This document shows, piece after piece, positions 22,226 through 24,685 of a DNA stretch of 64,000 nucleotides (position 1 is its first letter; every line of letters starts with the position of its first letter). The translations under genes and the position numbers were made by a program. The notes below the pieces were generated by a model that ran no database searches, was not told the origin of the DNA, and worked only from the letters and a program-made list of their open reading frames with translations. Origin of the DNA: Streptomyces sp. NBC_00306. Lineage in GTDB: Bacteria > Actinomycetota > Actinomycetes > Streptomycetales > Streptomycetaceae. The stretch lies in contig NZ_CP108032.1 of assembly GCF_036169555.1 (NCBI RefSeq), forward strand, positions 6,076,001 to 6,140,000, read 5' to 3'.

Positions 22226-23461
22226 TCACGGCGCGGGCCTGGGCGGGCGGGGGCCGCTGTAGTGACCGCTCGGCCGCATCCGCAGCGGCTGCTCCTCGTA
22301 CTCCTCGAGCGCATGCGCGATCCAGCCTGCCGTACGCGCCACGGCGAACACGGTCTCACCCGCCTCGGCCGGCATCCCCGACGACAGCGAGAGCACGGCG
22401 AGCGCCATGTCGACATTGGCGTGCAACTCCACATGACGGGCGGTCGTCGACTCCACCTCACGAGCCGCGTCCAGTGCCGGACCGGCGGCCGGGATCTGCT
22501 CCAACGCACCGAACAGGGCCTCGGCGCGCGGGTCCTGGGCCGGGTACAGACGGTGCCCGAGCCCCGGGACCCGGCGTCCCGCCCGAAGATGGTCGGCGAC
22601 GACCGGTGCCGCCCCGCCGCGTTCGAGCACATCGGCGAGCATCCGGTGGGCGAGCCCGCTGGCCGCCCCGTGCAGCGGCCCGTCCAGCGCGCCGAGTCCG
22701 GCGGACACGACGGCGTACGGATGGGCGCGCGCGGAGGCGGCGACCCGCACCGCGAGGGTGGACGCGGCCAGGTCGTGGTCGATGAGCAGCGAGAGCGCCA
22801 TGTCCAGGGCGCGCAGAAACGCCTCGTCGGGGCGCATCGCGGTGAGCCGTGACCACAGCCGCCAGGCCAGCCGGCCCTCTCCCCGGTGCGGCTCACCGAC
22901 CCTGGGGAGCGCGTCGACCAGGACGGGGATCAGGGAGCGGGCGCTGCCGAGGACGGCGTCACGGCCGAGGTCGAAGCGGAGCGGATCGGCGACGGCCGCG
23001 GCGATGGCCGCCACCCGGAGCCGGTCCGTGGACCCGCTGTGCACGGGCAGCGCCTCGACCGCCCGGCGGGCGGCGGCCAGCGGCTCGGGCGGGGAGGTGA
23101 AGCGGATGCCGCTGTGCAGTGTGCCGGTCCAGAGCCAGTCGGCGATCTCCTCGTAGGAGTGGCTGCGGGCCAGCTCCGTGGCGTCCACCCCGCGGAAGTA
23201 GTACCGGTCCTTGTCGATCAGCGTGATGCCGGTACGGATCCGCTGGGTGACGTCACTGCCGGCCGAGGGCTCGCGCCGCCCCTTGCGGACGAGCGCGTCG
23301 ACCTCCTTGGCGTCGAAGGTGCTGCCGCGGCCGGTGGGGTCGCGGCGGCTGGAGAGCTGTCCGCGGCTGACGTACGCGTACACCGTCTCGGGTTTCACGC
23401 CGAGCCGCTCGGCCGCCTCGCGCGTGGTGATCCGGTCCGTCTCCGGTGCGTTCTCCGTCAT
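22226..23461 (-). CDS. Citrate synthase homologue with N-terminal helix-turn-helix domain
   Basis: 411 aa. Residues about 8-62 are a MerR/excisionase-like DNA-binding domain: ITTREAAERLGVKPETVYAY, then SRGQLSSRRDPTGRGSTFD. The rest is a citrate synthase fold keeping the main active-site residues: His in DHDLAAST, His in GPLHGAA, GLGHRLYP, and Asp in HANVDMALA. The ATG at 23461 follows a -10-like TACGGT by 7 nt; an ATG at 23479 lies inside the operator palindrome. It is divergent from a conventional citrate synthase gene. Such fusions are known in actinobacteria, but I know no proven function. An acyl-CoA- or oxaloacetate-sensing regulator that also controls its own promoter is a reasonable hypothesis, and catalysis is not excluded. 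Confidence 0.85.
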   Translation of the reverse strand: MTENAPETDRITTREAAERLGVKPETVYAYVSRGQLSSRRDPTGRGSTFDAKEVDALVRKGRREPSAGSDVTQRIRTGITLIDKDRYYFRGVDATELARSHSYEEIADWLWTGTLHSGIRFTSPPEPLAAARRAVEALPVHSGSTDRLRVAAIAAAVADPLRFDLGRDAVLGSARSLIPVLVDALPRVGEPHRGEGRLAWRLWSRLTAMRPDEAFLRALDMALSLLIDHDLAASTLAVRVAASARAHPYAVVSAGLGALDGPLHGAASGLAHRMLADVLERGGAAPVVADHLRAGRRVPGLGHRLYPAQDPRAEALFGALEQIPAAGPALDAAREVESTTARHVELHANVDMALAVLSLSSGMPAEAGETVFAVARTAGWIAHALEEYEEQPLRMRPSGHYSGPRPPRPAP

Positions 23462-23468
23462 GAGGAAC

Positions 23469-23474
23469 ACCGTA
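23469..23474 (-). promoter_or_regulatory. -10 box of leftward (HTH-citrate synthase) promoter
   Basis: On the minus strand TACGGT, 7 nt before ATG 23461. The palindrome 23478-23496 fills the space where the spacer and -35 box would be. Confidence 0.5.
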
Positions 23475-23477
23475 CAC

Positions 23478-23513
23478 ATATTGATTCAATCAATATTGAC
23501 AGTGATGCAATCA
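23478..23513. promoter_or_regulatory. AT-rich double operator between divergent citrate synthase genes
   Basis: A perfect palindrome atattgatt-c-aatcaatat (23478-23496) contains TGATTCAATCA (23482-23492). A second copy, TGATGCAATCA, lies at 23503-23513, exactly 21 bp (two helical turns) away. The stretch is strikingly AT-rich for this genome. One copy sits in each divergent core promoter, so one regulator could control both genes. Confidence 0.75.
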
Positions 23514-23525
23514 AGCATGGACAGT
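23496..23525 (+). promoter_or_regulatory. Rightward promoter of citrate synthase gene
   Basis: A consensus -35 TTGACA (23496-23501), 18-nt spacer, then GACAGT (23520-23525), which keeps the A2 and T6 of a -10 box. The spacer contains the second TGATnCAATCA copy. Confidence 0.6.
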
Positions 23526-23548
23526 CGAATCTATTCAAGGAGGCTGTT

Positions 23549-24685
23549 ATGCAGATGGACGTACCGCGCGGACTCGCCGGGGTCGTGGTCACCGACACCG
23601 CACTGGGAGATGTCCGGGGGCGGGAGGGCTTCTACCACTACCGCCAGTACTCGGCCGTCGAGCTCGCGCAGAGCACCGGGTTCGAGGACGTCTGGCATCT
23701 GATGTTCTACGGGGAGCTCCCCGACGCCGACCGGCGCCGGACCTTCCTCGCCGAGACGGCGTCCTTGCGCCGGCTGCCCGACGTCGTACGGGCGGCACTG
23801 CCGGGGATCGCCCGCGCCGGCGCGCCGTCCGGCCAGCTGTCCGGGCTGCGGACGGCGCTCTCGCTGCTGGGAGCCGCCTCCGGACTGCGGCCGGTCTACG
23901 ACCTCGACACCGAGTCCCGCCGCAGGGACGCGCTGGCCGCGTGCGCCGTCGTCCCGACGCTGCTCACCGCGCTGTACCGGCTGGGCCGGGGGCTCGAACC
24001 GGTCGAACCGCGCGAGGACCTGCCGTTCGCGGCCAACTACCTCTACATGCTGTCCGGTTCGGAGCCGGAACCCGCCCGGGCCAGGGCGATCGAGCAGTAC
24101 CTCATCTCCACCGTCGACCACGGCTTCAACGCTTCCACCTTCACCGCCCGGGTCATCGCGTCCACGGGCGCGGACCTCGCGGCCTGCCTGGTCGGCGCGA
24201 CGGGCGCGCTCTCGGGCCCTCTGCACGGCGGCGCCCCGAGCCGCGCCCTGGACACCCTCGACGCCATCGGCACCCCGGACCGCATCGACCCCTGGATCCG
24301 CGAACGGGTCCTCGCGGGCGAACGCATCATGGGCTTCGGCCACCCCGTCTACCGCACCGAGGACCCGCGCTCCCGCATGCTGCGCGGCATCGCGGAGAGC
24401 TTCGGTGGCCCCCTGGTGGAGTTCGCGGTCCAGGTGGAGGCGCAGGTCGAGGCGATCCTGGCGGAACTGAAGCCGGGCCGGGAACTGCACACGAACGTGG
24501 AGTTCTACGCGGGCGTGGTCATGGAGCTGTGCGGACTGCCGCGGGAGATGTTCACGCCGACGTTCTGCGCGGCGAGGGTGGTGGGCTGGAGCGCGAACAT
24601 CCTGGAGCAGTCAGAGGACTCCAAGATCATCCGCCCGGCGGCGAGGTATGTCGGGCCGCCGCCGGTGCTGCCGCGGGCGTCCTGA
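23549..24685 (+). CDS. Citrate synthase (2-methylcitrate synthase possible)
   Basis: 378 aa, ATG 23549 with a strong AAGGAGG 5 nt upstream. Condenses acetyl-CoA (or propionyl-CoA) with oxaloacetate. Active-site segments: TVDHGFNASTFTARV, LSGPLHGGAPSRA, IMGFGHPVYRTEDPR and HTNVEFYAGVVM. The usual catalytic Asp of the last motif is Glu here, a variant I recall in other short actinobacterial citrate synthases. ILEQSEDSKIIRPAARYVG is the conserved C-terminus. It is paired head-to-head with a homologue carrying a DNA-binding domain. The main housekeeping citrate synthase is probably elsewhere; this one may serve a conditional carbon route. Confidence 0.88.
   Translation: MQMDVPRGLAGVVVTDTALGDVRGREGFYHYRQYSAVELAQSTGFEDVWHLMFYGELPDADRRRTFLAETASLRRLPDVVRAALPGIARAGAPSGQLSGLRTALSLLGAASGLRPVYDLDTESRRRDALAACAVVPTLLTALYRLGRGLEPVEPREDLPFAANYLYMLSGSEPEPARARAIEQYLISTVDHGFNASTFTARVIASTGADLAACLVGATGALSGPLHGGAPSRALDTLDAIGTPDRIDPWIRERVLAGERIMGFGHPVYRTEDPRSRMLRGIAESFGGPLVEFAVQVEAQVEAILAELKPGRELHTNVEFYAGVVMELCGLPREMFTPTFCAARVVGWSANILEQSEDSKIIRPAARYVGPPPVLPRAS

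Follow-up and report, generated by a model that had tools for sequence, protein, structure and literature searches.

The union of an enzyme and a DNA-binding repressor in one protein is a well-known design, of which PutA, BirA, and NadR are examples. PutA of enteric bacteria combines an enzyme with a ribbon-helix-helix domain and serves as the autorepressor of putA-putP. In Bacillus subtilis, the gene for the LysR-type regulator CitR stands divergent from that for the minor citrate synthase CitA. In Streptomyces coelicolor, two adjacent citrate synthase genes, SCO5831 (citA3) and SCO5832 (citA4), have a common intergenic region; the accessible text of one report describes binding of MtrA to a probe of the SCO5831-SCO5832 region in EMSA, a MtrA site at -16 of SCO5832, and higher expression of both genes in an mtrA mutant late in growth (PMC12323332). 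The SCO5831 protein has been detected by proteomics, according to the available portions of two studies (PMC8981147, PMC9739823). As far as their accessible text goes, the published sources on these two genes describe both products as citrate synthases, without reference to an HTH or a palindrome. Moreover, a literature search that covered mostly openly accessible papers found no description of a citrate synthase with an HTH or of the palindrome reported below. The original prediction had called catalytic-domain regulators of this kind little described; within that search this holds for citrate synthase, but not for enzyme-repressor fusions as a kind.

The locus of this study lies in a 64,000-nucleotide stretch of the genome of Streptomyces sp. 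NBC_00306 (the window), in which two citrate synthase genes stand divergent with 87 bp between their ATG codons at 23461 and 23549 (Table 1). By Pfam, the leftward gene (the fusion) carries a DNA-binding and an enzyme domain on one polypeptide; the rightward gene encodes a plain citrate synthase. As in PutA, a DNA-binding domain is joined to an apparently intact enzyme and appears, from sequence comparison, to be associated with operators in the region that separates its gene from a divergent neighbour; unlike in PutA, the DNA-binding fold and the enzyme are of other kinds. The resemblance to citR-citA lies in the divergence of a CitA-like minor citrate synthase gene from that of a putative local regulator, but the candidate regulator here is a citrate synthase itself, whereas CitR is a LysR protein.

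Table 1. Features of the divergent citrate synthase locus, numbered by position in the window
Feature	Position	Strand	Remarks
HTH-citrate synthase fusion gene	22226..23461	-	411 aa from ATG at 23461
Citrate synthase domain of the fusion	22271..23239	-	residues 75-397; Pfam, conserved columns, structure match; catalytic positions His264, His303, Asp351 (411-aa numbering)
Winged HTH of the fusion	23279..23428	-	residues 12-61; HTH_17 35.9 bits, MerR 32.4, MerR_1 25.8, all above cut-off
Perfect 19-bp palindrome	23478..23496		
Main operator TTGATTCAATCAATATTGACA	23481..23501		terminates in the plain synthase's -35-like TTGACA
First TGATkCAATCA copy TGATTCAATCAA	starts 23482		both copies 21 bp apart, start to start
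TTGACA	23496-23501		-35-like element of the plain synthase
Second copy TGATGCAATCAA	23503..23514		
Conserved TGGACAGTCGAA	23518..23529	+	-10-like region of the plain synthase; place of the published S. coelicolor MtrA site (correspondence inferred)
GACAGT	23520-23525		
Plain citrate synthase, CitA-like	23549..24685	+	378 aa; Glu instead of catalytic Asp

The ATG at 23461 has GGTG just 5' of it and, judged by eye, is seemingly a better fusion start than the in-frame upstream ATG at 23479 of the open reading frame list, which would give 417 aa. The N-terminal domain was recognized by Pfam as a winged HTH of the MerR type (PF00376 and PF13411 above cut-off), with HTH_17, MerR, and MerR_1 only just above their cut-offs; the NCBIfam excise model also exceeded its cut-off (29.4 bits against 28.8). 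A sequence search of solved structures with the HTH alone gave no match. Unlike in MerR proteins, the HTH is followed by citrate synthase from residue 75 on, and both the C-terminal dimer helix and the effector part of MerR are absent. The enzyme domain scored 207.5 bits with Citrate_synt (PF00285; cut-off 27), and the protein reached the cut-off of no NCBIfam citrate synthase model. An AlphaFold2 model built from 19 sequences (mean pLDDT 78.2, pTM 0.76, the HTH part at lower confidence) has the citrate synthase fold: it aligned with two 2-methylcitrate synthases at a VIA-align Z of 34.4, with an rmsd of 3.3 over 319 residues and, for 6s6f_A, of 2.7 over 315 residues, and solved 2-methylcitrate and citrate synthases matched at Z ∼34.

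For the active site, the numbering and residue roles of pig citrate synthase were assigned to the alignment columns of the fusion, which we take to identify the catalytic His-His-Asp and the substrate-binding Arg residues. All of these are present in the window fusion; the Pfam domains and the catalytic residues thus bear out the predicted combination of a MerR/excisionase-like HTH with a citrate synthase of intact active site. When frames spanning query residue 25 or earlier to residue 380 or later were aligned (shorter frames being left out), the equivalents of pig H238, H274, R329, D375, and R401 were unvaried in 168 of 168 fusion rows (167 different ones, the window being counted as itself and as L203), and that of H320 was kept in 164. 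The H320-equivalent His was lost in L012 and in three g64 sequences of one genus, L075 (Met), L078 (Ile), and L080 (Ala). These three fusions keep the HTH and the operator despite the missing His and look like natural catalysis-poor regulators.

The fusion might thus be a pure transcription factor in which the synthase domain is a ligand-binding and dimer module and citrate making has been lost. Such a loss would agree with the four rows that lack the His, three of them with HTH and operator retained, and with the occurrence of at least one citrate synthase besides the fusion in each of the 15 genomes checked; the NBC_00306 genome has four citrate synthases in total. We regard this reading as possible rather than probable, as neither the catalytic Asp nor the first catalytic His varies in any of the 168 rows, a constancy seemingly beyond what ligand binding alone would need.

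The plain synthases have Glu at the catalytic Asp position in 158 of 159 aligned rows, which include the window twice and two paralogues from its own genome, L003 (Glu) and L004; the latter, a housekeeping paralogue, provides the sole Asp. The aligned sequence of B. subtilis CitA (2c6x) has this Glu as well. Since the partner has Glu for Asp and the fusion has kept its residues, the canonical triad belongs to the fusion and not to the partner.

Regarding the intergenic region, the original prediction was correct in every coordinate and motif: two TGATkCAATCA copies 21 bp apart, a perfect 19-bp palindrome, TTGACA, and GACAGT, all within the 87-bp gap. As a two-copy operator it held only partly among relatives, in which the first copy is nearly perfect but conservation of the second is largely confined to its right half (AGTCAA). 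The relatives have a constant block, TTGATTCAATCAAYRTTGACA, with AGTCAA 21 bp further and TGGACAGTCGAATCAA after that, and the distance of the operator to either gene varies widely. Repression of both genes is suggested by the place of the operator, which in the window enters the plain gene's -35 and sits close upstream of the fusion start. A MerR-type activator that acts by bending the promoter would be an alternative, in keeping with the type of HTH and with the second half-site, which lies between TTGACA and GACAGT of the plain synthase. However, the best-kept palindrome stands directly 5' of TTGACA, with the operator running into this motif rather than lying between -35 and -10, and the 18 bp from TTGACA to GACAGT is an ordinary spacing when compared with the 19-20 bp of MerR promoters. 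An activator is unlikely in our judgement, and a repressor is the reading pursued here.

The 20-bp operator TTGATTSAATCAAYRTTGAC is single in the 8.5-Mb genome of NBC_00306 at up to three mismatches, with 0 matches for the reversed-pattern control. The search for further operator targets in this genome gave 11 other places at two mismatches besides the second copy; four were inspected, and none was clearly linked. Conservation was assessed from a starting set of 182 fusion loci; no fusion N-terminus was obtained for 8 of them, the other 174 were oriented, and merging of identical ones reduced these to 154. Counted over 173 loci, the full motif TTGAY-N(2-7)-RTCAA-YR-TTGA preceded the fusion gene in 111 of 122 Streptomyces-group loci and in 33 of 51 other loci, against shuffle expectations of 0.005 and 0.000, respectively. 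A chance motif was rejected on the basis of these expectations and of the single genomic occurrence with a control of 0. Across 108 Streptomyces-group loci, the mean majority base was 0.956 in the 20-bp core and 0.39 in the left flank. The full motif was missing in 11 Streptomyces-group and 18 other loci; Jiangella-like loci, L181, and L184 have variant operator sites, and no operator was seen in the 260 bp read of L188. The spacer between TTGAY and RTCAA was 3 in 108 of the 111 Streptomyces-group loci and elsewhere mostly 3, 4, or 6; such a clade-dependent spacer is odd for a rigid dimer.

The fusion occurs in 97 of 150 genomes from the window's own genus (the Streptomyces genomes) and in 53 of 296 genomes drawn from the class (both E 1e-50), as well as in 42 of 396 genomes drawn from the phylum (E 1e-35), where four matches stop short of the HTH. 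Among the 94 Streptomyces genomes with the plain gene (best E < 1e-160), 93 also carry the fusion. The co-occurrence of fusion and operator foreseen in the original prediction was observed: at up to two mismatches, the 20-bp operator was present in 90 of 97 genomes with the fusion and in 0 of 53 without it (Fisher 2.8e-33, kinship ignored), and the reversed-pattern control gave 0 in 150 of 150 genomes. The contrary outcome named in that prediction, an operator conserved without the fusion, was therefore not encountered at this type of locus. The seven fusion genomes without an operator match comprised three orphans (G013, G107, and G110), in which the fusion is present with neither the plain synthase nor the cis operator; G060, G105, and G136 (loci L053, L134, and L148), with a changed spacer or extra mismatches; and G102, with a broken-up match.

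The cis operator was lost along with either gene in L158 and in L065, L067, and L152. Each such joint loss may be one deletion and is then weak proof; because adjacent genes can be lost together, separating cases were sought in loci with another neighbour, in G032, in a trans site, and in the orphans. In L170, L171, L176, and L185, a homocitrate/isopropylmalate-synthase-like gene stands beside the fusion and the full operator is kept; L183 has such a neighbour with the operator core only. A specific enzyme name for this neighbour was dropped, as it scored below all NCBIfam cut-offs; our guess is that in these five loci it could be a Re-citrate synthase. In L196 and L202, a cupin gene precedes the synthase and the operator is full, and L191 has a full operator with no synthase found in the stretch beside the fusion. 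In G032 (L208), the plain gene is inverted or re-inserted, and each gene has an operator copy, that at the fusion with two mismatches. In L184, a locus with a variant operator, the neighbouring synthase has by eye an N-terminal CBS-domain-like stretch in the same open frame.

These cases also bear on the ownership of the operator, which might belong to another regulator, such as MtrA, GlnR, or an unknown factor, with the fusion HTH serving something else. MtrA did bind the SCO5831-SCO5832 probe, and both genes were up in the mtrA mutant late in growth, in the accessible text of that report (PMC12323332); negative control of two Saccharopolyspora citrate synthase genes by GlnR is stated in the available part of a review (PMC10704036). 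As far as PMC12323332 describes it, however, the published MtrA site resembles the downstream TGGACAGTCGAATCAA element and not the palindrome, so that MtrA is unlikely to own the latter, with the correspondence to S. coelicolor inferred. Letter for letter, the published site was absent from every locus compared. Its position at -16 of SCO5832 matches the place of the TGGACAGT element, which it resembles, and SCO5832, as far as the site is described, should thus correspond to the plain gene and SCO5831 to the fusion. The palindrome, moreover, is in none of the 53 fusion-less genomes and stays with the fusion at most neighbour-swapped loci. As general regulators, MtrA and GlnR would not be expected to track the fusion in this way. 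Ownership by another regulator appears very improbable to us, and the fusion is the preferred candidate for binding the operator.

Four off-locus operator matches lay at one gene, which encodes a family III CoA-transferase (PF02515). The motif of its promoter, TTGATTSAATCAATACTKCATAGTG, was found at up to three mismatches in 21 of 150 genomes, all of which have the fusion (Fisher 9.2e-5, kinship ignored); 20 of the 21 matches sit at the CoA-transferase match, and that of G102 was outside the placement count. When CoA-transferase promoters were read in 91 of the 94 matching genomes (G130, G075, and G112 were left out), the 13-bp palindrome TTGATTSAATCAA was present upstream at up to two mismatches in 25 of 55 fusion genomes and in 1 of 36 fusion-less genomes (Fisher 3e-6, kinship ignored), and for close orthologues (at least 625 bits) in 23 of 29 and 1 of 11, respectively. 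The three orphan genomes have a zero-mismatch palindrome at this gene, which would account for the intact HTH that their fusions retain. Thirty of the 55 fusion genomes have no good site there, the fusion-less G067 has a site with two mismatches, and the NBC_00306 genome has no CoA-transferase match at E 1e-60. In a tree built from 30 CoA-transferases, genomes without the fusion are dispersed (7 changes), although many forks are weak. In a kinship-corrected pair test on this tree at two mismatches, 1.3 pairs were for, 0 against, and 1.7 undecided; with 3 supported independent pairs, significance was unreachable. The idea that the operator is a mere -35 was rejected, since TTGATT at the CoA-transferase is only 12 bp from CATAGT, too close for a -35/-10 pair, and since all 7 fusion-less orthologues compared keep CATAGT, with palindrome mismatches of at least 4 in five of them, 3 in G063, and 2 in G067. 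By eye, the CoA-transferase gene with the operator adjoins a subtilisin-type protease-like gene in L204-L207. Taken together, these data indicate that fusion and operator are linked in cis, with weaker evidence for such linkage in trans.

We consider it likely, from these sequence comparisons, that the fusion is both a citrate synthase and a DNA-binding autoregulator, which binds the operator, most likely represses both genes, and responds to substrate or product via its intact active site; the best description is probably that of a local autoregulator of the PutA kind, acting as a repressor. The fusion, probably as the usual citrate synthase dimer, would bind through its N-terminal winged HTH to a predicted target composed of the inverted repeat TTGAY-N-RTCAA and the adjoining TTGAC, which lies in the shared promoter region and overlaps the -35 of the plain synthase. 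Bound there, it would most likely repress its own gene and that of the plain synthase. The enzyme domain would make binding depend on oxaloacetate, acetyl-CoA or a related acyl-CoA, or citrate, such that the second citrate synthase, or in other lineages the other enzyme at that promoter, would be made on demand. The original prediction had named acetyl-CoA, propionyl-CoA, or oxaloacetate as the candidate signal. In part of Streptomyces, the fusion may also control the distant family III CoA-transferase gene. A wider reading, between whose truth and falsehood we see an even balance, is that an active citrate synthase would be its own transcription factor across classes of Actinomycetota, with its binding set by substrate, and would have been rewired through one ancient operator to a second citrate synthase, a homocitrate-synthase-like enzyme, or, in trans, a CoA-transferase.

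The fusion and its operator are real, strongly conserved, and, as far as our literature search shows, undescribed. The fusion is a proposed regulator for SCO5831/SCO5832, which the available parts of the literature have so far treated as citrate synthases. Should the proposal hold, a large group of antibiotic-producing bacteria would have a transcription factor in the enzyme that opens the citric acid cycle, and an enzyme could sense acetyl-CoA/oxaloacetate status directly and convert it into gene control. For the coupling of sensing to catalysis, natural test cases are at hand in the operator, the orphan genomes, and the genus that lacks the catalytic His. The conservation described here suggests that a central metabolic enzyme may also switch genes on or off.
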